Shown here: positions 5,216 to 58,109 of the stretch, one piece after another
How positions within the stretch are numbered: the stretch's first letter is position 1
Layout: each line of letters starts with the position of its first letter
NCBI RefSeq assembly: GCF_004323635.1
Contig: NZ_CP036516.1
Span: 88,259 to 152,258 of the forward strand
DNA from: Lichenihabitans psoromatis
GTDB taxonomy: Bacteria > Pseudomonadota > Alphaproteobacteria > Rhizobiales > Beijerinckiaceae
Length of the DNA stretch: 64,000 nt
Reading direction: 5' to 3'
The notes under the pieces: generated by a model
The model's database searches: none
What the model saw: only the letters and a program-made list of their open reading frames with translations
Told to the model about the DNA's origin: nothing
Position numbers and translations under genes: made by a program

Positions 5216-5270
5216 GATCTCCCGCGCCGAAGCTCTGGCGAGACGCCTCGCGACGCGATATCACTGCTGC

Positions 5271-5509
5271 GGGGCGGTACGCGCTGCCCTGGGGCGTGGA
5301 AACCTCGAGCTTACCGGTTTGGTGCCGGCCGTTACGGCACCTTTCTCCTAGACCTTCTGGTCGGGGAGCCTGCGACGTATGTCCAGGCGCCCCGGTGCTA
5401 AAGGTCGTAGGAGCCGGGTAAGCTCGGTTTTCCAACTCCCCGACTACGGGTGGTCTAGGCTTGTTTGCGGGGGCGCACCGCAGACACAAGCCTCAAGGGA
5501 AACGGGTCG
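5271..5509 (+). ncRNA. Conserved structured RNA-like element, copy 1 (5' region of the small ORF at 5510)
   Basis: Seen in sequence: hairpin 5272-5277/5284-5289; long-range helix 5306-5315/5417-5426; inside it hairpins 5321-5327/5335-5341, 5351-5354/5359-5362 and 5368-5372/5384-5388; then a CCCG-ACTA-CGGG hairpin at 5439-5450 and a long terminal hairpin 5457-5464/5486-5493 enclosing TGCGG/CCGCA. A diverged copy at 54721-54958 keeps every helix; the long-range helix has changed on both arms (GCTTAC/GTAAGC against CGTAGT/ACTATG), which is strong covariation. The terminal hairpin ends 16 nt before the ATG of the ORF, just upstream of its ribosome binding site. I cannot match it to a known riboswitch or ribozyme by eye. 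Confidence 0.7.
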
Positions 5510-5755
5510 ATGGCCGACCCCGCCGACAAAGCGGACGCTCTCGAAGTTCGAACGATCGCGGCGCACCTTGCCTATATCGATGCGCTGACCGCATGGGAGC
5601 GCTTAGTCGAGGCGAGCGAGGCGGAGACCGGCGTCGAGCACGAGCGAGCGTGCGCCGACGCAGAAGCGCGGAAAGAAGAGCGCCGGGTCGCGTTTCGGGA
5701 TCTGCTCGACGAGCTCGGATACCTGCCGAGCTTGAACGGGTCCTCGATCCCCTGA
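5510..5755 (+). CDS. Small conserved protein (81 aa) downstream of the structured RNA
   Basis: ATG 5510 follows a GGG-rich ribosome binding site directly after the terminal hairpin of the upstream element. The protein is charged and probably helical, with no signal peptide or membrane segment. It is homologous to the product of 54959-55210: both begin MADP and share TIAAH.AY.DA.TAWE.LV and, near the C-terminus, AFRDL.D.LG..P. The pairing of this ORF family with the same RNA-like element at two loci suggests the element controls it, or that the two form one functional unit. No function is recognised. Confidence 0.7.
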   Translation: MADPADKADALEVRTIAAHLAYIDALTAWERLVEASEAETGVEHERACADAEARKEERRVAFRDLLDELGYLPSLNGSSIP

Positions 5756-5943
5756 AGGGCCGCAGATGCCGAGCCAACACTACGGCAGACCCGGAATGTC
5801 CGGAGCGGCGCCGCCTTCTCAGACGGTTTAGTCCGCATATAACCCGAAACCGGGAAGGCCTTATAGCCAACCTCACTAGGGTTCGAATTGCCAAAGCTAC
5901 GATCGGCGCTGCGGGCGCGGCAGCTTGAACGGAGCGTCTTAGA

Positions 5944-5965
5944 CATATACACTCGGCATATACAC
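5944..5965 (+). promoter_or_regulatory. Direct-repeat operator candidate upstream of vapBC
   Basis: Two copies of CATATACAC (5944-5952 and 5957-5965) spaced 13 nt start to start, ending just before the AGGAG ribosome binding site of the antitoxin gene. VapB-type antitoxins usually autorepress by binding repeated sites here. The 220 bases between the small ORF and this site show no convincing gene. Confidence 0.5.
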
Positions 5966-5978
5966 AGGAGCTACAACA

Positions 5979-6230
5979 ATGCCGGATGCAGCGCCTCGAC
6001 CCCGCCAGGTCCGACTCTTTCGCAACAATCGGAGCCAGGCCATACGCATCCCTGTCGAGTTCGAGCTGCCGGGCACCGAAGCCGTCATCAGTCGCGATGG
6101 CGACCGGCTCATCATCGCGCCCGTGCACCAGAGCAAGCTCTTGGACCTTCTCGCCGGCTGGCAGCCGCTCGATGACGAATTTCCCGATGTCGATGCAGGC
6201 TTACCGCCGCTTCGCGACGTGACGCTGTGA
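5979..6230 (+). CDS. vapB: VapB-type antitoxin (AbrB-like)
   Basis: 83 aa. The N-terminal half is an AbrB/SpoVT swapped-hairpin domain (RLFRNNRSQAIRIP, then a VISRDGDRLI strand) that binds operator DNA. The C-terminal tail (LLAGWQPLDDEFPDVD) is the part expected to wrap around and inhibit VapC. Good AGGAG ribosome binding site 8 nt upstream. The stop overlaps the toxin start by 4 nt, the usual TA arrangement. A remnant of a homologous antitoxin tail lies at 55249. Confidence 0.9.
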   Translation: MPDAAPRPRQVRLFRNNRSQAIRIPVEFELPGTEAVISRDGDRLIIAPVHQSKLLDLLAGWQPLDDEFPDVDAGLPPLRDVTL

Positions 6231-6631
6231 CCCTCTACATGCTGGACACCAACATCGTGTCCGACATGATGCGCAACCCTCGGGGCAAGGTCGCGGACCA
6301 CATTGCCAGGGTGGGCGAAGAGAACCTCTGCATCAGCATCATCACGGCGGCGGAGCTGCGGTATGGGGCGGCGAAAAGCGGATCGAGCCGCATTCTGGAG
6401 AGGGTCGAAGCCATCCTGGCGCGGGTTCCGGTCCTGCCTCTGGCACCGCCGGCGGATGCGCATTACGGCGGCATTCGTGCCGAGCTCGAAGCCGCGGGCC
6501 GTCCGATCGGACCCAACGACCTTTTGATCGCGGCTCATGCCACCGCGCTGGGCGCCATCATGATCACGGCGAACGTCGCCGAGTTTCGGCGCGTGCGAGG
6601 CCTCGAAGTCCGGGACTGGACGGCCGATTAG
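6227..6631 (+). CDS. vapC: VapC-type PIN-domain ribonuclease toxin
   Basis: 134 aa, GTG start in a GTGA overlap with vapB. PIN-domain acidic residues are present: LDTNIVSD near the N-terminus, the AAELRYG glutamate, and PNDLLIAAHA about two thirds along; the C-terminus RGLEVRDW is typical. Known VapC toxins cut tRNA or rRNA; the target of this one cannot be read from sequence. It probably stabilises the mobile element. Confidence 0.9.
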   Translation: MTLYMLDTNIVSDMMRNPRGKVADHIARVGEENLCISIITAAELRYGAAKSGSSRILERVEAILARVPVLPLAPPADAHYGGIRAELEAAGRPIGPNDLLIAAHATALGAIMITANVAEFRRVRGLEVRDWTAD

Positions 6632-7038
6632 CCATTGGGCTCAGCGGCCGAGGGCATCGCCAGGGTGGTCGCTCGGGATCGATACGCCCTCGCTCGATGC
6701 TTTCGATCAGATCGAGCAGATAGCTGGGATCCGCAGGGTAGGGGCAGGTGGCCCAGACCTCACGGATCCTGGTCTGTAACAAGCGGGGGAGGTCGGCGAG
6801 CCGCTTCCTCGCTCGGCGCCACGTCTGCGCCCGCGCCGATCGGGCCTGCAGCTGGGTGCGAAACCATTTGCTCGGCCCGGCGCGCCATCTCGGTGTCGGC
6901 GCTCGGCTGGGCATTGCCGATGATCGCCGCCAGCAGCGGATGCCGGTCTCGTTGATGTCGCTGGCTTCGCCGCAGGGCAGCACGCTTGCGAGGCGTATCC
7001 TCGAAGGCCGATACGCGCGGCCAGCGTCGGAAGCGCAT
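6564..7038 (-). pseudogene. Conserved hypothetical DUF gene behind ardC, frameshifted
   Basis: Starts at 7038 in a TGATG overlap with the ardC stop, beginning MRFRRWPRVSAFEDTPRKR. Recognisable sequence then changes frame near 6860: the first frame ends in low-quality sequence, while the next frame continues with WRRARKRLADLP and CPYPADPSYLLDLIES before stopping at 6564. The 3' end overlaps vapC convergently. I recall similar small proteins next to ArdC genes in related plasmids but cannot name a function. The break is a one-base shift; true mutation and sequencing error are both possible. Confidence 0.5.
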
Positions 7039-7990
7039 CACTCCACCTCCCGCGTCTCGTCGACCGCTTCCTCCTCCAAGGTTTCGGTGTCCGGCAGGAA
7101 CGCTAGGAGGAAGTCGGCGGCCTTGGAGGCGGCGCTGGCAGCCCGCACGATCGCGCGGTTGTCTTCGCGGACGATGTCGAGCCACGCGCCGAGGTAGTCG
7201 GCATGGCGCACGGTCGGAACGATGCCGAGCGACGCGCAGACGAACGCGGCCGAAAGCTCGGCGACGCATTCCTCCACGAAGTACGGCTTCGAGCCGAACG
7301 ATCCGCTCTGGTCCCGGGCAAGGCGAGTGCTCGCGCCACTCCAGTGCGAGAGTTCGTGCGCCATCGTTCTTGCGAAATTGATGGGCACGAGGAACGCGTC
7401 CGGTCGCGGCACCTGAACATAGTCGTGCGTCACACTGTAGAATGCCTTGCCGCCGCCGATCTTCACCACGGCGCCGCTGGCCTTCACGAGAACGTCGATT
7501 GCCGGGGGACCAGATTGTCCGGCACCGGGGGGAGCGATGCGACCAGCGAATCCGGCACCCCGTCGCACTGGTCCGCATTGAAGACGGTGAAGCGTTTCAG
7601 GAAAGGAATGGCACCGCGCGGCTCGCCTTGGCTCACGGCTCCAGGCTGATGGTCGCCTGGGGTGAACCGGCTGGCGTAGACCACCGTGGTGCCGCGCTCT
7701 CCCTTCCGCACGCTGCCGCCCAAGGCCTGGGCCTGACGAAACGTGAGCCAGTTCTGCGTTCTGAACCCATGCTGGATCACGGTATCCCAGAGGATCAGGA
7801 TGTTGATACCGGAATACCGCCGTCCAGTGAGGGCGTTCTTCGGCATGGCCAGGGGCGCGTTCGCTGCAGCCCAGGGCTGGACCCAAGGAACGCGGCCGGC
7901 CTCCAACTCCGCTATGATGCGGTCCGTGATCTCCTGGTACAGCGACGCCCGGCTCGGGGCAGAGCGGGTGCGTGTGGCGGCTCGGTTCAT
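7038..7990 (-). pseudogene. ardC: ArdC-type antirestriction protein, one-base frameshift (copy 1)
   Basis: The N-terminal ArdC ssDNA-binding domain (LYQEITDRIIAELE, NILILWDT, GTTVVYASRFTPGD) reads from ATG 7990. The C-terminal zincin domain with an HELSH zinc motif reads in another frame down to 7040. The switch is at the G5 run 7504-7508: one extra G would restore PVPDNLVPPAID, as in the second copy. ArdC proteins protect incoming single-stranded plasmid DNA from restriction. GGAG lies 8 nt before the start and a structured leader precedes it. Confidence 0.85.
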
Positions 7991-7999
7991 GGCGGAACT

Positions 8000-8090
8000 C
8001 CGCGACCGGCCGGCCGCGAGCCTCTCTCGCGATCCTCGACCCGTCACGGCCAGCCAGGCCGCCCTCTCACTCTCCTAAAGGCAGCATGCG
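8000..8090 (-). promoter_or_regulatory. Structured 5' leader of ardC copy 1 (copy 2 of 3)
   Basis: Outer helix 8049-8043/8006-8000 (CCGTGAC with GTCGCGG, one G.U pair) encloses hairpin 8031-8026/8020-8015 (CGCGAG/CTCGCG, loop AGAGG). The GGAG ribosome binding site begins in the 3' arm. It has the same architecture as the leaders of parB and ardC copy 2; upstream similarity (GTGAGAG, GGCC hairpin) extends to about 8090. The 250 bases from here to the Xre gene hold no other recognised gene. Confidence 0.65.
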
Positions 8091-8344
8091 CCCTCCGTTT
8101 CGGCGAGGAGGATCGCGCGACCGATCGTGACCGAAGGCGGAGACCTGGAGGGGCTTCGGGCAGCAGGCTGTCCTGCGGAGTAGAGCGGGGTCCGGGTACC
8201 GGACGCGCCATGAAACTCACCGCGATGGGACACCACGTTGAGAATTGGGATCAAGCCCCGGCACCCAGCGACCTCCCACAGCAGGGAACTTGCACGAACG
8301 GTTCTGTCCCGTATATTGACTGTAATCGAGGCGGGGATCAGGAC

Positions 8345-8779
8345 ATGGCGGCGATCAAGCTCAAACCCGTAAAGGGGTCGGCCATTCGATCGGATACGTT
8401 GGGCCCACCGCAAGAGCAACGTGAAGCCCACTTCGTCACGAGCTTCATGGACAAGGGGATCGTCGACGTTGATCGCGTCGCGGAGGCGTTCCGGATGTCC
8501 AAGGGCCAGCTCGCTGAAACCGCCGGGCTTGGCATCGCGTCGGTCTCGAAGGCGAACCGGCGCGTGGCGCCCAAGGCGCAGACCCGTGTCACTGAAATGC
8601 TCGAGATCATCAGCCGGGTGCGCGACTGGTCGGGTGGCGAAGCACAGGCGATGGCCTGGTACCGCTCGCAGCCCATTCCCGCGCTCGACGGCCGCACGCC
8701 CGAGGCACTGGTGAAAGCCGGCCGCGCCAGTGCCGTAAGGGAATACCTCGACCATTTCGCCCTTGGCGGATTTGCTTGA
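8345..8779 (+). CDS. Xre/MbcA/ParS-type antitoxin of a RES toxin
   Basis: 144 aa. Central helix-turn-helix-like region and a C-terminal DUF2384-type segment (RTPEALVKAGRASAVREYL) characteristic of antitoxins that block RES toxins. The stop overlaps the downstream RES start by 4 nt. Start ATG 8345 chosen for the family's normal length; the longer in-frame upstream extension overlaps the ardC leader and is rejected. Likely autorepressor of the pair. Confidence 0.85.
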   Translation: MAAIKLKPVKGSAIRSDTLGPPQEQREAHFVTSFMDKGIVDVDRVAEAFRMSKGQLAETAGLGIASVSKANRRVAPKAQTRVTEMLEIISRVRDWSGGEAQAMAWYRSQPIPALDGRTPEALVKAGRASAVREYLDHFALGGFA

Positions 8780-9309
8780 GATTTGTCGGCCGCTGCTATC
8801 GTGCCCATGATCCGGCCTGGTCGTTCTCGCCGCTTTCAGGTGCGGGTGCAGCAGCGACAGGCGGCCGGTTCAACCGCAAGGGGGAGGCCACGCTCTATCT
8901 GTCGCTGGACGTGATGACGTCGTTCGGCGAATGCACCCAGGGCTTCACCAATCGCCTCCAGCCATTGAGCATGTGCGAGTACGACGTCGACTGTGAGGGT
9001 ATCGCCGATCTTCGCGACGATGCGGCGCGGGCCGCGCACGGTGTCACGCGCGATGAACTGTCCTGCTCCTGGCTCACCTTCCAGCTCGCGGGAAAGGCTG
9101 CGCCCTCCTGGCTGGCCATCGATCGTCTCAGGCCTGCGGGTCACACCGGTATTCTGGTCCCGAGCTTCGTGCCGGGAGCCACGGAGGCGAACATCAACCT
9201 CGTCCTCTGGCGCTGGGGGCCAGATCTCCCGCATAAAGTCGACGTCTTCGATCCGACCGGCCGACTGCCCAAAAACCAGATCTCCTGGCCCGCGGCAATC
9301 CGCCGATGA
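8776..9309 (+). CDS. RES-domain toxin
   Basis: 177 aa with the RES arginine motif (GGRFNRKG) followed by LYLSLD and the downstream Ser-rich core. Characterised RES toxins (MbcT, for example) degrade NAD+ in the cytoplasm. The start is a TTG in a TTGA overlap with the antitoxin, consistent with translational coupling. First of three RES/Xre pairs in the window; the other two belong to different RES subgroups. Confidence 0.85.
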   Translation: MRFVGRCYRAHDPAWSFSPLSGAGAAATGGRFNRKGEATLYLSLDVMTSFGECTQGFTNRLQPLSMCEYDVDCEGIADLRDDAARAAHGVTRDELSCSWLTFQLAGKAAPSWLAIDRLRPAGHTGILVPSFVPGATEANINLVLWRWGPDLPHKVDVFDPTGRLPKNQISWPAAIRR

Positions 9310-18910: not shown

Positions 18911-19537
18911 ATGCTCAAAGTCATACACGGGTCCGAGGTCAGCGCACATCAGGAGCTGATGGATCGGGTCTTCCGGTTCCGGCACGGTGTCTTCGTGGAC
19001 GAGAAGGGCTGGGAGGATCTCCGCCAACCTGATGCGCGGGAGCGCGACCAGTTCGACGATGCGCATGCGATCCATCAGGTCTGCCTGCGCGACGAAGAGA
19101 TCGTCGGCTATCAGCGGCTCCTACCGACGACGCGGCGACACCTCTTGACCGACGTGCTGGGAGACCTCTGCCGGACCAAGCCACCCCGAGGGCCGCGGGT
19201 CTTCGAATGGACCCGCTTCTGCGTGGCGCCAAGCCACCGCGAGGTCCGGCCACGGGCGAACGGCGCGTTCCTGGAACTGGCGCAGGGCGTCGTCGAAGGG
19301 GGAATGGCCAACCGCGTCGACACCGTCACGGTAGCCATCGATTGGCGATTGATGGTTATCGCGATGCAGCTCCGCTTCTTCGTTCGACCTCTCGGTTTCC
19401 CGAAGAAGATCGGCCGCGACGAAGTCGTCGCCCTTCGCATGTCGTTCACGGGCGAGACCCTCACGACCATCCGCCAGGCACGCGGCTGCGACGGACCGGT
19501 GTTGGAGCGCCCTGAGCGGCAGAGCTCGGCCGCCTGA
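18911..19537 (+). CDS. Acyl-homoserine-lactone synthase (LuxI/TraI family)
   Basis: 208 aa. Shows the LuxI invariants: two arginines in FRFRHGVFV, Trp 35, the acidic ERDQFDD, GYQRLLPT with its arginine, and EWTRFCV near residue 100. It would make an N-acyl-homoserine lactone from S-adenosylmethionine and an acyl carrier. GGAGG ribosome binding site 5 nt upstream. In rhizobial plasmids such genes control conjugation by quorum sensing. No LuxR-type regulator was found in the window. Confidence 0.9.
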   Translation: MLKVIHGSEVSAHQELMDRVFRFRHGVFVDEKGWEDLRQPDARERDQFDDAHAIHQVCLRDEEIVGYQRLLPTTRRHLLTDVLGDLCRTKPPRGPRVFEWTRFCVAPSHREVRPRANGAFLELAQGVVEGGMANRVDTVTVAIDWRLMVIAMQLRFFVRPLGFPKKIGRDEVVALRMSFTGETLTTIRQARGCDGPVLERPERQSSAA

Positions 19538-19809: not shown

Positions 19810-20150
19810 CGCCAGATGCCATTTGCACCGTGTGCCCTCGGCAGAGGATGGGGTTCGACACGATGGGCTTTCCTCGAACCCGTCGGGTCGGGGCGGCCGA
19901 GACCGCCCGACCCAACTCGCTTCAAGCGGCGAAGCGGTGGGACGATACGGTTGCCGATCGGTGTGGATCGGCGCGTATCTGCCATGTGGTTGCGGGACTG
20001 TCGTGCACAAACGCACCATGCCATATCCATGGTGCATCGCACGCGAAGCATGCCCTTCTTGGGCGTTTCCTCCCTTAGACTTGGACCGCCCGCGAAAAGT
20101 GAGGCGGCCTTTTCTTTTGCGGCGGAGAGAGGCTCGCCTCCGGTCCCTAG
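19810..20150. other. Convergent intergenic region, possible terminator
   Basis: No gene. Two GC-rich hairpins on the plus strand at about 20052-20064 and 20083-20110, the latter followed by CCTTTTCTTTT. They could end transcription of the luxI-type operon before the oppositely oriented exported-protein operon. Confidence 0.35.
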
Positions 20151-25792: not shown

Positions 25793-28204
25793 ATGGTAGC
25801 CCGCGCCCTTCTCGATGAGCTGACCTTTGGCGCCGTGTCGCGCCGCGAACGGCCGGTCAGCACGCACATCCCCTACACAAGGCATGTCGACGACCACGTC
25901 ATCCGGACGCGGGACGGGCTGGTCATGACCGTGCTGAAGCTCGAAGGCTATTCCTTCGAGACTGCCGACATGAGCGAGGTCAACGCCCGCCTGCTCGCCC
26001 GCAACGACGTCGTGCGGACCCTCGCGAACTCCCGCTTCGCCATCGCGAGCCACATCGTCCGTCGCGAGGTGCAGCCCGTCATCGCCTCGACCTTCGACAA
26101 TGCGCTCTGCCGCGAGATCGACGAGCGCTACGACGCGGCGCTCTCCAAGCGGAAGATGTTCGTCAACGACCTCTACGTGACGATCGTCCGGCGGCGCCTG
26201 CAGGGACAGGCCGGCACCTTCGACACGGCACTCACCAAGCTGCTTGGCCGCAAGGATGAGGCCGGGGATTCCGTGGCCGAACAGACCGCGCTGACCGAGC
26301 TGCGCGATGCGGCGACGGCCGTGCGCGAGAACCTCGCTGCCTACGGCGCGCGGCAGCTCGGCGTCGTCAAGCGGGACGGGGTCTGGTTCTCCGAGCCGCT
26401 CGAATTCCTAGTGCAGCTCGTCAATGGCGGGTTGCCGCGGCCGATGCACCTGCCGCGGATGGCACTTGCCGATGCGCTGGCGCAAAAACGCATCTTCTTC
26501 GGCAAGAACGCCATCGAGATCCGCGGCGCCGGGCCGGACGACACGCGTTTCGCGGCCATGGTGTCGATCCGCGAATATCCGGCCCAGACCGGCCCGGGCT
26601 CATTCGACAATCTGCTGCGCGTCCCGCACGCCTTCATCGCGACCCAGACTTTCGCCATCGTCGACCGGCCGGAAGCCGCCCGCCAGATCGACCGCGTGTC
26701 GCGCCAGGTCGACATGTCGGACGAGGCCGGCTCGATCGTCGCCGAGCACTTGGACGAGGCCCGCGACGAGCTGCTCGCCTCCGAGGCGATCTACGGCGAG
26801 CACCACATGTCGGTGATGTGCCTTGGCCGGAGCTTGGCGGAGGTCGCGGCCAGCGTCACCGTCGTCGGCGCCGCGCTGACCGACCGCTCCGTCATCTGGA
26901 CGCGCGAGGACCTCAATTGCGAGCCGGCCTTCTGGGCCCAGCTCCCGGGAAACTTCGCCTATATCGCGCGCAAGGCGGTCATCTCGTCGAAGAATTTCGC
27001 CGGCTTCACGTCCCTGCATAATTACCCGAGCGGGCGGCCGGACGGAAACCATTGGGGTCCCGCCATCTCAGTCTTCGAGACGACCTCGCAGACCGCCTAC
27101 TACTACAACCACCACGTCCGCGACCTCGGCAATTTTACGGTCGTCGGCCCGTCCGGAAGCGGCAAGACTGTCTTCCTCTCCTTCATCTCCGCGCAGTCCC
27201 AGCGGGTTCTGCCGCGTCCAAAGCTGCTTTTCGTCGACAAGGACAGGGGCGCGGAGATCTTCATCCGCGCCATGGGCGGCCATTACGAGATCCTGGTGCC
27301 CGGCGAGCCAACGGGGTTCAACCCGCTGTCACTTCCCGACACCGCGCGCACCCGCGAGTTCCTGTTCCAGTTGTTGGGCTTCATGCTCCGGCCAGCCAAT
27401 GGCGGCGAGCTCTCGGCCTCCGAGGAGCAGGTGATCCGCAACGCCGTGCAGGCCGTGCTCGGGGGCGGACCGGAAGGGCGGACGCTGAAGGCCTTCTCGA
27501 CCCTGCTGCGCGGACGCATCCGGGCCGGGGAGGGGGATCTGCTGGCGCGGCTCGAGAGCTGGATGCGCCCGGACCAGCGCGGCTGGCTCTTCAACAACGA
27601 GACCGACCAGTTCTCCGTCTCCAGCATCTTCGGGTTCGACATGACCCGGGTGCTCGACGATCCCGTCATCCGCACCGCGGCGCTCATGTACATCTTCCAT
27701 CGCACCGAGGAGCTGCTGACGGGCGACCCCGTCATGATCTTTTTGGACGAGGGCTGGCGGCTGCTCGATGATCCGGTCTTCGCCTTCTTCATCAAGGACA
27801 AGCTGAAGACCATCCGCAAGCAGAACGGAATCATCGGCTTCGGCACGCAATCGGCCGCCGACATCGTTCGCTCGAGCTCGGCCAGCACGCTGATCGAGCA
27901 GACCGCGACCAACGTCTTCTTCCCCAATCCGAAAGCGGACGACGAGAGCTATGGCCGCGCCTTCCGGCTGTCGTCGCGGGAGGTCGAATGGATCCGCAGC
28001 ACGGTGCCGGAAAGCCGGTCGTTCCTGATCAAGCACGGCCGCGACAGCGTGATCGCGCGCCTGAACCTCGCCGGCATGCCGGACCTCATCAAGGTTCTGT
28101 CAGGGCGCACCGAGACCGTGGCCGAGCTCGACGCGTTACGCGCCCAATTTGGAGATGATCCGGCCGCCTGGTTGCCGATCTTCATGGGACGGGCCGCGGC
28201 ATGA
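25793..28204 (+). CDS. virB4: VirB4 ATPase
   Basis: 803 aa, full length. N-terminal CagE/TrbE/VirB domain; Walker A GPSGSGKT near residue 452 and Walker B VMIFLDEGW near residue 647. Powers pilus biogenesis and substrate transfer from the inner membrane. The stop overlaps the next start by 4 nt. Confidence 0.95.
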   Translation: MVARALLDELTFGAVSRRERPVSTHIPYTRHVDDHVIRTRDGLVMTVLKLEGYSFETADMSEVNARLLARNDVVRTLANSRFAIASHIVRREVQPVIASTFDNALCREIDERYDAALSKRKMFVNDLYVTIVRRRLQGQAGTFDTALTKLLGRKDEAGDSVAEQTALTELRDAATAVRENLAAYGARQLGVVKRDGVWFSEPLEFLVQLVNGGLPRPMHLPRMALADALAQKRIFFGKNAIEIRGAGPDDTRFAAMVSIREYPAQTGPGSFDNLLRVPHAFIATQTFAIVDRPEAARQIDRVSRQVDMSDEAGSIVAEHLDEARDELLASEAIYGEHHMSVMCLGRSLAEVAASVTVVGAALTDRSVIWTREDLNCEPAFWAQLPGNFAYIARKAVISSKNFAGFTSLHNYPSGRPDGNHWGPAISVFETTSQTAYYYNHHVRDLGNFTVVGPSGSGKTVFLSFISAQSQRVLPRPKLLFVDKDRGAEIFIRAMGGHYEILVPGEPTGFNPLSLPDTARTREFLFQLLGFMLRPANGGELSASEEQVIRNAVQAVLGGGPEGRTLKAFSTLLRGRIRAGEGDLLARLESWMRPDQRGWLFNNETDQFSVSSIFGFDMTRVLDDPVIRTAALMYIFHRTEELLTGDPVMIFLDEGWRLLDDPVFAFFIKDKLKTIRKQNGIIGFGTQSAADIVRSSSASTLIEQTATNVFFPNPKADDESYGRAFRLSSREVEWIRSTVPESRSFLIKHGRDSVIARLNLAGMPDLIKVLSGRTETVAELDALRAQFGDDPAAWLPIFMGRAAA

Positions 28205-54123: not shown

Positions 54124-54720
54124 TCAGCCCGGCAGAAGGCGAGCGACATCGGACGGGACGAGCTGCCCCCCAAGGTGCTTTGCGACCTCATGCTGACCGA
54201 GGCGCCGCAAGTCTTCGTTGAAGTCTCCAAGACATGGGTTCAGCGCGAGCACCTCGATCCCCGCCTGCCGCGCTCGTTCACTCAATCGCGCCAGGCCGCC
54301 GCGCCCTGCCCCGTCACAGTCGACCGCGACGTACAGCCTGCCCAGCGTCGCCGGCAGACGGAACGCTGCCAGGTGGTTGGCGGAAAGCGCCGCAACCGCG
54401 GGGAGGGTGGGCATCACCATGCGCAACGACAGGATGGTCTCCAGTCCTTCGCCGGCCACGAGAACCGGGGCAGGGGAGGGGGGCTCCCCACCGAAGCGGA
54501 CGCCAAAGCCGAATAAGTCTCCCATCGCCCGGCGCGGCGATGGCACGGGCGCCTTCCGTCGCGGGTCCGCCGGGTCGAGCCAGGTCCGATGCACGCCGGT
54601 GATGTGCCCGTCGCCGTTGGTCACCTTCGCGATCAGCGCGGGAAACGCTCGCGTGCGGGCATCAGCCACGCGGATTGCTGGTATCTGGCACCTTCCGCAG
54701 AAATTCGGTAAGAACGGCAC
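54124..54720 (-). pseudogene. TOPRIM-domain (DUF7146-like) protein, N-terminus missing
   Basis: FPALIAKVTNGDGHITGVHRT starts the recognisable family part, then VAGEGLETILSLR (TOPRIM glutamate) and LYVAVDCDGAGRGGL (TOPRIM aspartates). Full relatives have another 80-100 N-terminal residues with a zinc finger; here they are replaced at 54720, exactly where the second structured element begins. Plasmid primase-helicase-like role by family. Confidence 0.75.
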
Positions 54721-54958
54721 GGGGCAGTACGCGCTGCCCTGGGGCGTGGAAACCCCGACGTAGTTGGTAGGGTGCCGACCAGAACGGTGCCGATCCTCGA
54801 CCCTTGCGGTCGGAGAGCCTGTGACGCATGTCCAGGCGCCTCGGTGCTAAAGGTCACAGGGCCGTACTATGTCCGGATTTCCAACTCCCCGACTACGGGT
54901 GGTTCAAGGCTTGTTTGCGGGGGCGCACCGCAGACGCAAGCCTTCCGGGAGCGGGTCA
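54721..54958 (+). ncRNA. Conserved structured RNA-like element, copy 2
   Basis: Helices in the same order as 5271-5509: 54722-54727/54734-54739; long-range 54757-54764/54866-54873 (GACGTAGT/ACTATGTC, one G.U); GGTGCCG/CGGTGCC with two wobble pairs where copy 1 has A-U/G-C; GACC/GGTC with a different loop; CCTG/CAGG; CCCG-ACTA-CGGG; and the terminal AGGCTTG..CAAGCCT hairpin with TGCGG/CCGCA inside. Sequence between helices differs, while the single-stranded blocks GGCGTGGAAACC and GGTGCTAAAGGTC are kept. Confidence 0.7.
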
Positions 54959-55210
54959 ATGGCGGACCCCTTTGTTGATAGGGCAGGTCTGGAGGATCAG
55001 ACGATCGCCGCGCATCGAGCCTATCTCGATGCGCAGACGGCGTGGGAGCAACTGGTAAAGGCCGGCCCGACGGGCTTGGACGAAGACCACGCAGGAGCTT
55101 GCGAAGCGGCCGAGGCTCACAAGGAAACTTGTCGGATCGCGTTCCGTGATCTCGCCGATAAGTTGGGGCACATTCCCCGATCTGACAGATCTTTGATCGG
55201 GCGAGCCTGA
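54959..55210 (+). CDS. Small conserved protein (83 aa), paralogue of 5510-5755
   Basis: ATG preceded by GGGAG after the terminal hairpin. Shares TIAAHRAYLDAQTAWEQLV and AFRDLADKLGHIP with the first copy. No signal peptide or known domain. Confidence 0.7.
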   Translation: MADPFVDRAGLEDQTIAAHRAYLDAQTAWEQLVKAGPTGLDEDHAGACEAAEAHKETCRIAFRDLADKLGHIPRSDRSLIGRA

Positions 55211-55248
55211 GACTATTGCTTGCAATCTTCTACCGAGAGGCCCGATTG

Positions 55249-55455
55249 ATGATCGACGTTGCACAGAATGTGTCTCTACGAAAGTTGCTCGCGAACTGGG
55301 AGCCGCTCGACATCGAATTCCCCGACGTCAGCGCGGAGCTTTTGCCGCTGAGTAATGTGTCTCTTCAGACCGCCTTCGTACGAGCCGATGGGCGATATCA
55401 GCGAGTTTCAGCGTCCGAGGATTGGACGGTCGAGCCACGGACTGTAGACCGATAA
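55249..55455 (+). pseudogene. VapB-VapC fusion remnant
   Basis: The first 35 residues (LLANWEPLDIEFPDVS) match the C-terminal tail of VapB at 5979-6230. The end (RYQRVSASEDWTV) lines up with the last residues of VapC at 6227-6631 (FRRVRGLEVRDWTA). The DNA-binding half of VapB and nearly all of VapC are deleted. It stands where vapBC stands in the first module. Confidence 0.6.
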
Positions 55456-55496
55456 GTAGAACAAGCTCGAACCGCAGCCCTGTCAACCGAACAGCT

Positions 55497-56452
55497 TTAG
55501 GCAGCCTGCGATTCTGCGTCGACGGACCCATCATCGTCCCTCGCTAGATCCTTATCGAGGAAGCCGAGCAGAAAGTCCGCGGCCTTCGAGGAGGCACTCG
55601 CCGCCCGGATGATCGCGCGATTGTCCTCGCGCATGATGTCGAGCCACGCGCCGAGATAGTCAGCATGGCGGACCGTCGGCACGATCCCGAGCGAGGCGCA
55701 GACGAAGGCCGCCGACAGCTCGGCGACGCATTCCTTCACGAAATACGGCTTGGAGCCGAACGAGCCGCTCTGATCGCGGCCAAGACGGGAGGCTGCCCCG
55801 CCCCAGTGCGACAGCTCGTGCGCCAGCGTCCGGGCGAAATTGATCGGGACCAGAAACGCGTCGGGGCGCGGGACCTGCACATAGTCATGGGTGACGCTGT
55901 AGAACGCCTTGTCGCCGCCGATCCGCACGACGGCCCCGCTCGCCTTCACCAAAGCATCGATCGATGGGGGAATCATGTCGTCCGGGACAGGCGGAAGCGG
56001 CGTCGTCAGGGTCTTGGGGAGCCCGTCGCACTGATCGGTGTTGAAGACGGTGAAGCGCTTCAGAAACGGGATGCCCGCGCGGGAGTCTGCCCGGCCTGAC
56101 TCGACGGGCTGGGCGTCGCCCGGCGTGAACCGGCTGGCATAGACCACGGTCGTCCCTCGCTCCCCTTGCGCACGGATCCGCCGAGCGACAGCGCCTGTCG
56201 GAACGTGAGCCAGCTCTGTGTCCCGAAACCCCGCTGGATGACCGTGTCCCAGAGGATCAGGATGTTGACGCCCGAGTAGCGACGACCCGTCAAGGCGTTC
56301 TGCGGCATGGCCAGGGGCGCACTGGCCGCGGCCCAGGGCTGCACCCACGGGACGCGGCCCTCTTCCAGCTCGGCGATGATGCGGTCCGTGATCTCCTGGT
56401 AGAGCGAGGAGCGGCTCGGGGCGGGGCGGGTGCGCGTGTCGGCTCGGCTCAT
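55497..56452 (-). pseudogene. ardC: ArdC-type antirestriction protein, one-base frameshift (copy 2)
   Basis: N-terminal domain from ATG 56452 (LYQEITDRIIAELEEG) to SVRKG; the remainder, GERGTTVVYASRFTPGD through the HELSH zinc motif (AHELSHWGGA) to 55499, is one frame over. One extra G in the run at 56162-56165 (C4 on the plus strand) restores it. Highly similar to copy 1 but not identical. The frameshift sits at a different place, so the two copies broke independently, or both are sequencing errors. Confidence 0.85.
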
Positions 56453-56461
56453 GGTGGCTCT

Positions 56462-56550
56462 CCGTGACCGGCCGCAGGCGAGCCTTTCTCGCCACTCCTC
56501 GACCGTCACGGCCAGACCGGCCGCGCTCTCACTCTTTCCGGCAGTGCGGT
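56462..56550 (-). promoter_or_regulatory. Structured 5' leader of ardC copy 2 (copy 3 of 3)
   Basis: Outer helix 56511-56505/56468-56462 (CCGTGAC/GTCACGG); inner hairpin 56493-56488/56482-56477 (GGCGAG/CTCGCC, loop AAAGG). GGAG follows directly. A GGCC-GGTCT-GGCC hairpin lies upstream. The 270 bases from here to the Xre start contain no recognised gene. Confidence 0.65.
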
Positions 56551-56822
56551 GGTGGCCTCGCTCGACCCGGCTCGCTGCTCGCGCGACCGATCGTGACCGA
56601 AGGCGGAGACCATCGGGCTCCGTGGAGCCGGCGCGCCGGCGGAGTAGAGCGGGGCCCGGCACAGGGCGCGCTATGAATCCATCAGAACTTGCCAAAAACG
56701 CCCAAATTCCAGAATGGGACCGGGGCAAAGCATATCGCACGAGGCCACACCGACTGCCGCGATCAATAGGCGATGTGGACAATCCGTTCAATCAAGCCTA
56801 TCTAGTGGACAGGAGATGTTCC

Positions 56823-57527
56823 ATGAGCCATGCAGCCTTACAGGCGCGATCCGACCAGAACTCCCTCAGCGAAGGCGATGTTCGCGCGGCGCTTCGCAAA
56901 CAGAATCCGACGGCATCGCTCGGCGATGTTCGCACCTTGGCCCGCGTCATGGCGGCGGTGTGGGAGGTCGTTGCCGAACTCCCGGAAGCCGAACGTCGCG
57001 AGATCGCGCAGGGCAAGGACAAGCTTCGCGTAGCGCTTCTCGATGCGTGGCGCAGCCGAAGCGTGCGACCCGATCACAAGAGCGTCGAGGATCCTGGCGG
57101 CGACGTCGAGTTCAGCCGCGGAACCGGGCTTGGCGAGCGGATCCGTGTGGCCGAGGGACGCAAGCGCCTGGATCGATACGCCAAGGCTCGACCGCTGGAA
57201 AGCTGGGCGGGCCCCACAGCGGGGACGGGCGAAATCGAGGAGACCCTCGGCATCCCGCGTTCGACGCTCAGCAGCTGGCAGCAAAACGGGTCCGTCATCG
57301 GTCTGCTCCGTGGCGAGCGCAAACGTGCGTATCCGCTGGAGCAGTTTGTGGACGCGCGTCCCCTCGAGGGAGTTGCCGATATCCTGAAGGTGACCCCTGA
57401 CGCCCGGTCAGCGTGGCTATGGCTTCGACAACCCCACGGTTCTCTGCAGCATCGGCTGCCTTTGGACGTCCTGAAAGAGGGTGGCCGTGAGGCCGTCGTC
57501 CGAGCGGCTGAGCGCGACTTCGTTTAG
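56823..57527 (+). CDS. Xre-type antitoxin of the third RES pair
   Basis: 234 aa with AGGAG 7 nt upstream of ATG 56823. A central helix-turn-helix-like segment (TGEIEETLGIPRSTLSSWQQ) and a C-terminal antitoxin segment (DARSAWLWLRQPHGSL). Longer than the antitoxin in module 1 and only distantly related. Confidence 0.75.
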   Translation: MSHAALQARSDQNSLSEGDVRAALRKQNPTASLGDVRTLARVMAAVWEVVAELPEAERREIAQGKDKLRVALLDAWRSRSVRPDHKSVEDPGGDVEFSRGTGLGERIRVAEGRKRLDRYAKARPLESWAGPTAGTGEIEETLGIPRSTLSSWQQNGSVIGLLRGERKRAYPLEQFVDARPLEGVADILKVTPDARSAWLWLRQPHGSLQHRLPLDVLKEGGREAVVRAAERDFV

Positions 57528-57530
57528 GCG

Positions 57531-58109
57531 ATGCCTCTCGATCCGGCTATCATCGCCTCCCTGACCCGCCGTTTCCAACCCACTGAGTACCTTCGCACGA
57601 CACCGTGGGCGTTCCGTTCGACCCCTCTTGGGATGGGGTTCGGCAAGACACGGTTCGCCAGCCCCGCCGACGCGTTCAAGCTGATCTACGTTGCCGAGGA
57701 TCTTCCGACGAGCATCGCCGAAGCGATCGTTCGAGATCGTTTCGAGGGAAAGACCACGCGCGAGCTTGCGCGGAGCGATGTCGCCGATTGGGGCGTGTGC
57801 GAGGTCAGTGCCAGAGCACCCCTCCGCGTGTTAAACCTTCGCGGCAACGGTTGCTTCGAACTCGGTGTTTCGACGGACATCGTCGGAGCCAAGTCGCAGG
57901 ATGAGGCACGAGACTTCAGCCAGACGGTCCATGACACCACAGACCTCGACGGCATCCTCTACCGGTCGAGGCTGCGCAAAGAGCAGGACTGCGTCGCAGT
58001 TTACGAGAGGGCTGTCTCACCGAAGCTTGCGGCCGGCGCGGTGGTCCAAATGGAAAGCCTCGCCGGATTGATCCCGGCCCTTCGAGCGCTTAAGATCAAG
58101 TTGATCTAA
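57531..58109 (+). CDS. RES-domain toxin (third pair)
   Basis: 192 aa. The RES core reads GFGKTRFASPADAFKLIYVA, with the arginine, then EDLPTSIAEAIVRDRF, and DLDGILYRSRLRKEQDC later. Starts 3 nt after the antitoxin stop. Likely NAD+-depleting toxin by family. Confidence 0.82.
   Translation: MPLDPAIIASLTRRFQPTEYLRTTPWAFRSTPLGMGFGKTRFASPADAFKLIYVAEDLPTSIAEAIVRDRFEGKTTRELARSDVADWGVCEVSARAPLRVLNLRGNGCFELGVSTDIVGAKSQDEARDFSQTVHDTTDLDGILYRSRLRKEQDCVAVYERAVSPKLAAGAVVQMESLAGLIPALRALKIKLI

Follow-up and report, generated by a model that had tools for sequence, protein, structure and literature searches.

A conserved pseudoknotted leader-type RNA without a matching Rfam family precedes TraM-related genes on a plasmid-like contig of Lichenihabitans psoromatis

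What are the two similar, apparently structured stretches that stand in front of two small open reading frames (ORFs) on a plasmid-like contig of Lichenihabitans psoromatis? The DNA analyzed here, denoted as the window, is a stretch of 64,000 nucleotides of contig NZ_CP036516.1, for which a preliminary description had proposed a two-copy structured RNA-like element with a covarying long-range helix. The two stretches lie at 5272-5482 (copy 1, core fold and hairpin P9) and 54722-54932 (copy 2) on the plus strand, as do the promoters, helices and ORFs given below for the two copies. They are homologues with 81% identity in the pairwise alignment, and scored 210.9 and 201.6 bits, respectively, with the covariance model R1, whose training set includes both. 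The ORFs start at ATG 5510 and ATG 54959, as had been claimed, and encode 81 residues (5510-5755, with an SD-like AAGGG upstream) and, in the paralogue, 83 residues (54959-55210). Each copy is housed in one of two paralogous modules (5272-9309 and 54722-58109), in which the element is followed by the TraM-like ORF, a zincin metallopeptidase gene on the opposite strand, an Xre/MbcA/ParS antitoxin gene and a RES toxin gene. A MazE-like antitoxin and a PIN toxin are encoded behind the first module only, and the second has a short ORF of similar sequence.

The fold was evaluated in alignment A8, which consists of 69 non-redundant copies aligned by MAFFT without structure (69 kept from 116, with seven low-scoring loci and a second copy of locus L097 set aside). 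It comprises the hairpins P1 and P2, a pseudoknot PK1 between the P2 loop and a distant UUUCNA strand, the long-range helix P3, P4 with a small pseudoknot PK3, P6 lying across P3, P7, P8, P10, and the terminal hairpin P9. In copy 1, the P2 loop at 5297-5301 pairs with 5430-5434 to give PK1, P3 joins 5309-5314 with 5418-5423, P6 joins 5361-5368 with 5436-5443 (GGGGAG/CUCCCC) and thereby crosses P3, and P9 (GCGGGGGCGCACCGC) occupies 5467-5481; in copy 2, the family structure places P9 at 54917-54931. The 60-pair structure was paired in 94.6% of the 4095 cells of A8 against 36-46% for slid versions, double-sided changes were present in 43 of the 60 pairs, and none of 500 shuffles matched the structure on any of five measures. 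In a structure-blind mutual-information scan, the PK1 pair of columns 30 and 189 (99% paired, four pair types) was the strongest, followed by columns 47-175 and then by other P3 pairs, P1, P7, 32-187 and P4. The P6 pairs 112-197 and 116-193 ranked lower, with some non-pairing neighbours interspersed; P6 was 98.7% paired in A8. P3 is the long-range helix of the preliminary description, and its positions show five to six standard pair types each in the family alignment. With the common fold, the identity and this family covariation, the two-copy structured element is borne out.

Copy 1 forms all 60 of the family pairs, and copy 2 forms 52 of them in the MAFFT register, the losses being five of the six pairs of P3, two of the three of P10 and, in P6, a single A-C; the long-range helix, with the same strands as first described, was found in the minimum-energy fold of copy 2 itself. 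Relative to shuffles, the folding energy of copy 1 stands at z -5.5 and that of copy 2 at z -2.0, a level at which 7 of 200 shuffles fold equally well. Since folding energy alone is weak for copy 2, covariation carries the case for the fold. P6 and PK1 are absent from model R1, so that their pairing in 78 diverged copies (35 and 43, redundancy kept) is an out-of-sample test. P6 was paired in 264 of 268 cells (98.5%) of the 35 copies and in 342 of 344 (99.4%) of the 43, with slid versions at 37-58% and 38-56%; the corresponding values for PK1 were 156 of 165 (94.5%) and 201 of 215 (93.5%), with slid versions at 25-56% and 15-46%. PK3 (41 of 59 cells, 69%, and 84 of 88, 95%) and P10 (68 of 88, 77%, and 100 of 121, 83%) hold less well in these copies. 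The P1 row of alignment A7, which was used in this test, stood one column off register (a slide of -1 gave 0.88).

The paired cells of A8 also tell which strand folds. G-U cells numbered 309 and A-C cells 59, and when two near-constant wobble pairs (112 G-U cells) were removed, the ratio was still 197 to 59; G-U cells thus far exceed A-C cells, and therefore the folding strand has RNA sense, i.e. the sense of the downstream gene. Taken together, the computation shows a conserved multi-pseudoknot fold on the RNA-sense strand. A coding function of the element, the case that the preliminary description had set against a structured RNA, was rejected: any plus frame is open in 28 of 69 copies, spread over the frames as 10, 8 and 12, and all three length remainders occur, so the element is not translated.

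The element appears to occupy a fixed place in the transcript. A predicted sigma70-type promoter precedes copy 1 at 5235-5264 (CTGGCG at 5235-5240, an 18-nt spacer and TATCAC at 5259-5264), in a position common to the homologues, and another precedes copy 2 at 54685-54714 (CTGGCA at 54685-54690, an 18-nt spacer and TAAGAA at 54709-54714). Upstream of 54 of the 69 copies, the best -10 hexamer begins at -14/-13, compared with about 9% in shuffles, and a TTG/TGG-like peak is located at about -37 to -35 upstream of the 69 copies. On the other side, the ORF start lies 20-35 nt past the model end in 86 of 95 chosen ORFs, with starts sought at 12-60 nt only; L012 (copy 1 itself), truncated L062, L064 and a second L114 match (21 bits) were left out before this survey. 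Twelve of 107 distinct copies have no ORF start 12-60 nt downstream, five of these being followed at about 125 nt by a DUF2285-like ORF, and 8 of 82 copies have no ORF within 140 nt, some of these ending in a terminator. Based on the -10-like box just upstream and the ORF start 20-35 nt downstream, the element is probably the start of mRNAs, i.e. an mRNA leader. In this predicted position it resembles riboswitches, as a conserved structured domain would form the 5' leader of a gene. The earlier proposal of a structured RNA that could be a cis-regulator is supported in structure and position by the covariation in A8, the diverged copies and the promoter position. Of 73 upstream regions, seven, all at TraM-type loci, contain tra-box-like 18-mers between -75 and -53, which amount to about three distinct sequences; they score 13-14 of 18 against a tra-box consensus, a level of 13 being reached by 8 of 1380 shuffles, and one Ti plasmid locus (L006) has no such motif at the level used. 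These motifs agree with the TraR-responsive promoter with a tra box that is ascribed to traM (PMC3907764).

The family extends far beyond the window. The preliminary description had suggested that plasmids and genomes of the order be searched with a covariance model, and homologues were indeed found in both. By blastn against 72,556 plasmid records, 401 records with 485 places were obtained, mainly from Agrobacterium (220 records), Rhizobium (80) and Bradyrhizobium (20), and a pTi version used as a megablast query matched 174 plasmid records. A plasmid of Methylorubrum extorquens DM4 is among those with a copy. A protein-coding feature lay under the match in 2 of the 120 matches listed, among which some records occur twice and some carry no annotation; the feature table of this plasmid collection carries no RNA genes. 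R1, which was built from 11 sequences and lacks P6, PK1, PK3 and P10, found matches within the order in 63 of 397 sampled genomes, within the class in 48 of 385 and within the phylum in 24 of 398, the three samples overlapping in some genomes including our own, and 4 of 297 genomes in the phylum of Granulicella rosea (locus L054), two of which had been found earlier. A pattern scan of species genomes yielded at least 120 stretches; among the 80 matches listed were Sphingopyxis, Sphingomonas, Paracoccus and Acidocella as well as nine Acidobacteria-type records (Acidobacteria, Granulicella, Terriglobus). Because the pattern that supplied these 80 loci (L042-L121) fixed CTAAAGG and P9, the invariance of both in A8 is partly imposed. 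Several genomes have three to six copies, three stretches whose flanking sequence is the same are on viral contigs, and one is in phage records. At L212, L214 and L215, two or three copies stand in tandem about 490-655 bp apart, some of them with terminator hairpins behind and no ORF.

Frpo and ssi elements are hairpin promoters of single-stranded DNA, and a hairpin promoter on single-stranded transferred DNA had been offered as one reading of the element; it would be used when that strand enters a recipient. Its frequency on conjugative plasmids (mobility typing of the 401 records gave 294 conjugative, 105 non-mobilizable and 2 mobilizable) would suit this reading, as would the toprim, zincin-peptidase and toxin-antitoxin genes nearby in the window. 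In Frpo, however, the template strand folds and carries the promoter, whereas here the RNA-sense strand folds, as the G-U excess indicates, and the promoter-like motif is of the double-stranded kind and ends where the element starts. The element is also found in Acidobacteriota, and on three pTi/pAt plasmids (L005-L007) it is located between the traAFBH genes and traM. We therefore rejected the single-stranded promoter in the main and regard it as very improbable.

TraM is the TraR antiactivator of Ti plasmids and a known brake on plasmid transfer. A traM gene is annotated behind the leader on the two pTi plasmids and the pAt plasmid just mentioned and on pLCT2 of Bradyrhizobium (L010). A traR or autoinducer-binding gene is annotated near L005, L007 and L010 and is missing from the L006 stretch; in the unannotated S. 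fredii locus L266, a TraM ORF and a TraR-like ORF were read from translations. A profile search with the window ORF family collected 133 proteins; of the 120 listed, 116 carry a precomputed PF09228.17 assignment, P0079 of the window among them. The window ORFs and TraM relatives have an LG..P C-terminus in common, and the two-helix fold predicted for the window ORF (pLDDT 86.5) presumably resembles that of TraM. The direct profile-profile match to TraM is weak, at 67% probability over 18 columns. Against the Pfam family itself (PF09228), the ORF of copy 1 reached 15.8 bits, below the local cut-off of 22.2 bits and thus the gathering score, and the ORF of copy 2 gave no match at E <= 1. The PF09228 search of our own genome was empty, and the control genomes were likewise without a match. 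The profile of the window ORF family found no convincing match and no TraM among solved structures, while the neighbouring TraM set matched 1rfy, 1upg, 2hjd and 2q0o. The window ORFs, at 81-83 residues, are also shorter than Prok-TraM (about 102 residues), which they resemble in profile and C-terminus but not in their N-terminal part. Judged by these profiles, we class the window ORFs as diverged TraM relatives. On the Afipia plasmid pOC167, about 1.6 kb separates a gene of their family from the AHL synthase gene that it precedes. The 152,258-base contig encodes LuxI (about 18950-19456 of the window), VirB4 (about 26354-26971) and, outside the window, LuxR; with its LuxI-type synthase and VirB4 ATPase, the contig resembles a quorum-sensing conjugative plasmid. 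An Rfam suhB/mmgR RNA (52.8 bits) was also noted on this plasmid-like contig, at 20045-20124.

The association with a small ORF, which the preliminary description had called fixed, stands for the window and is too narrow for the family: the ORF is a TraM relative, and many other genes take its place elsewhere. Among the scanned ORFs of the high-scoring set, TraM was found in 29 of 83 and DUF2285 (RovC_DNA-bd in present Pfam naming) in 24 of 83 at E <= 0.01, and HTH, MarR-type and AraC regulators also follow. The scans covered 83 of 95 high-scoring and 64 of 73 diverged ORFs, the remaining 12 and 9 being omitted by eye as spurious or redundant. Behind the diverged copies are genes for HTH regulators, ECF sigma factors, outer-membrane proteins, nucleases, pilin-like proteins and small membrane proteins, which, unlike those behind most metabolite riboswitches, have no common pathway. 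The genes behind the diverged copies L202-L210, L036, L038 and L221, six of which share a genome, encode small membrane proteins whose start is DYNF..DLL.T.RS..DW.KA-like or related to it. We take the hypothetical gene that diverges from virB on p42d to be rctA; it has about 98 nt of upstream space, and its 49-kb stretch contains no model match; therefore the leader is not general for rctA. The winged-helix/MarR-like genes of L106 and L113 do have the leader. DUF2285 proteins have roles in both activation and antiactivation of ICE transfer (PMC10359603); in the text of this article, no word beginning with 'RNA' or 'untranslated' occurs ('mRNA' would escape this search). DUF2285 genes, the kind that make up the QseM/FseA switch of ICEMlSym, stand behind this leader in the 24 loci counted above. 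Among the open papers searched, titles and abstract beginnings report no such leader of traM or DUF2285 genes.

Whether the element belongs to a known RNA family was the remaining question of identity. No Rfam family exceeded its cut-off on the window's element; in 20 diverged loci only tRNAs did so, and 17 further loci gave one tRNA, two sub-threshold sRNA-Xcc1 matches and one whalefall-1 match outside the element. The earlier statement that no known RNA is recognizable therefore stands as regards matches over cut-off; it needs amending with respect to sRNA-Xcc1 (RF02221), which aligned in 4 of 20 loci tested for it (L009, L013, L120 and L166) at 32.1-36.6 bits against a cut-off of 53 (E 0.0076-0.087). 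In all four, the alignment spans positions 1-87 of 87 with the same order of a closing helix and two inner hairpins. Copy 1 of the window had no sRNA-Xcc1 match at E <= 5, and our own genome had none at E <= 1; as 2 of 14 control genomes also gave sub-threshold matches, such scores are not proof. The sRNA-Xcc1 consensus weakly matched a Nitratidesulfovibrio plasmid (E 0.004), ending 53 nt before a CDS; this stretch (L268, 1501-1618) is near a transposase gene. The likeness lies in the core order of helices P6-P7/P8-P10 and in the place upstream of a gene, which for sRNA-Xcc1 is symE in Xanthomonas integron cassettes (PMC12444791). The difference is that the element has about 90 nt extra on the 5' side (P1-P4, PK1, P3), and plasmid-type copies also have P9. 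We do not file the element as sRNA-Xcc1 and propose a common superfamily in which sRNA-Xcc1 would be the form without the 5' domain.

This relationship bears on the reading that the element is a stand-alone, trans-acting small RNA that lies before genes by chance. The end-to-end alignment of the core with RF02221, though below cut-off, speaks for it, as does the fact that sRNA-Xcc1 of Xanthomonas is a detected RNA of 88 nt (PMC2996969), and some copies do have a strong terminator and no ORF near. Against it stand the ORF starts 20-35 nt downstream in 86 of 95 chosen ORFs, before unrelated genes, and the small number of terminators in plasmid-type copies; given its place upstream of symE (PMC12444791), sRNA-Xcc1, too, may be a terminated leader. 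We hold the small-RNA reading to be improbable. On sequence evidence, we consider it likely that the element is a cis-acting leader RNA on the mRNA of a TraM-type antiactivator gene, and the best reading of the class is a cis-acting, riboswitch-like leader related to sRNA-Xcc1. Alphaproteobacteria have riboswitch and attenuator leaders such as SAM-II and TPP. The element is like these in its predicted place as a 5' leader, in its conserved domain with pseudoknots and in the terminator that follows this domain in some copies; it differs in that no Rfam class is over cut-off and the downstream genes are diverse.

How such a leader would act was judged from what follows the fold. An intrinsic terminator was predicted behind it in 27 of 79 mostly diverged copies (three of the 79, L166, L191 and L241, are high-scoring), 23 of them within 50 nt of the model end; as controls, three shuffles gave 0-3 of 79, the upstream side 7 of 79 and the opposite strand 3 of 79. 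A frequent type of terminator reads GAUCACCAG..CUGGUGAUC followed by a U-run, and GAUC is common to it and the P6 extension. The GGUC before P6 could pair with an upstream GACC in 42 of 69 copies (control 15%) and could alternatively extend P6 in 68 of 69 and 51 of 69. Among the 69 high-scoring copies, a terminator-like site was found in seven, i.e. in five of nine acidobacterial copies, where a U-run follows P9 itself, and in 2 of 60 others. The terminator behind the fold in diverged and acidobacterial copies thus has the predicted anatomy of an attenuator, whereas attenuation is unsupported for the window's type, since only those seven of 69 high-scoring copies, five of them acidobacterial, have a terminator-like site.

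Under the cis-acting leader, transcription would start at the promoter-like motif, where the fold begins, and the fold would end just before the ribosome-binding site and start codon. The folded domain would behave as an aptamer does, its state determining how strongly the downstream gene is expressed, and the signal could be a small molecule, a protein, an RNA or temperature. Some of the diverged and acidobacterial copies would thereby attenuate transcription, since their terminator lies behind the fold and may have bases in common with the end of P6. In plasmid-type copies, including those of the window, the output would be translation or Rho-dependent termination, because P9 is without a U-run, as is seen after P9 of copy 1. 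The leader might instead be constitutive, an mRNA stabilizer, a shield against 5' decay or a device that makes polymerase ignore terminators, with no sensing. A portable cassette of promoter-like motif, fold and gene before unrelated genes would fit this, and so would pseudoknots at the predicted 5' end; yet the loops and the P6 and P9 sequences are conserved beyond the needs of stability (CTAAAGG and P9 being pattern-fixed in many loci), and about a third of the diverged copies have a terminator behind the fold. A purely constitutive role accordingly seems unlikely to us. The lower level of TraM protein in an A. tumefaciens hfq mutant (PMC4201532) fits post-transcriptional control without proving it, and the effect may be indirect.

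In conclusion, the element is a genuine and conserved RNA of leader type to which no Rfam family corresponds. Its role in the window is most likely cis-control of a conjugation brake: on this plasmid, the leader would tune the brake on quorum-sensing-controlled conjugation, and it probably helps decide how much of the TraM-type brake is made. The nature of a signal is hinted at faintly by the neighbours of some copies. The nine acidobacterial loci have downstream one GGDEF gene, two HD_5 genes and three similar uncharacterized proteins of 356-379 residues; GGDEF genes lie behind L045 and L242 (one acidobacterial and one on a viral contig), and the HD_5 genes behind the acidobacterial L051 and L101. 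What these genes faintly point to is cyclic-dinucleotide signalling. More tentatively, at somewhat less than an even chance, the family may be an unrecognized, very widespread class of pseudoknotted leaders that serves as a portable sensor cassette, of which sRNA-Xcc1 would be both a reduced form and the terminated product, and may provide on Ti and symbiotic plasmids an RNA-sensed input, possibly of a cyclic dinucleotide, to the TraM and DUF2285 brakes.

It is surprising that no Rfam family recognizes an element found on hundreds of plasmids, many from Agrobacterium and including Ti plasmids. TraM and QseM-type proteins help set the transfer of Ti, symbiotic and other elements, and in the portions of the literature consulted their control has been discussed in terms of promoters and proteins, to which an unexplained effect of Hfq is added in the case of TraM. 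If the broader proposal is true, sRNA-Xcc1 would turn from a lone trans-acting RNA into a branch of a large leader family, and a leader common to unrelated antiactivator families would mean an RNA-level input in many transfer systems.
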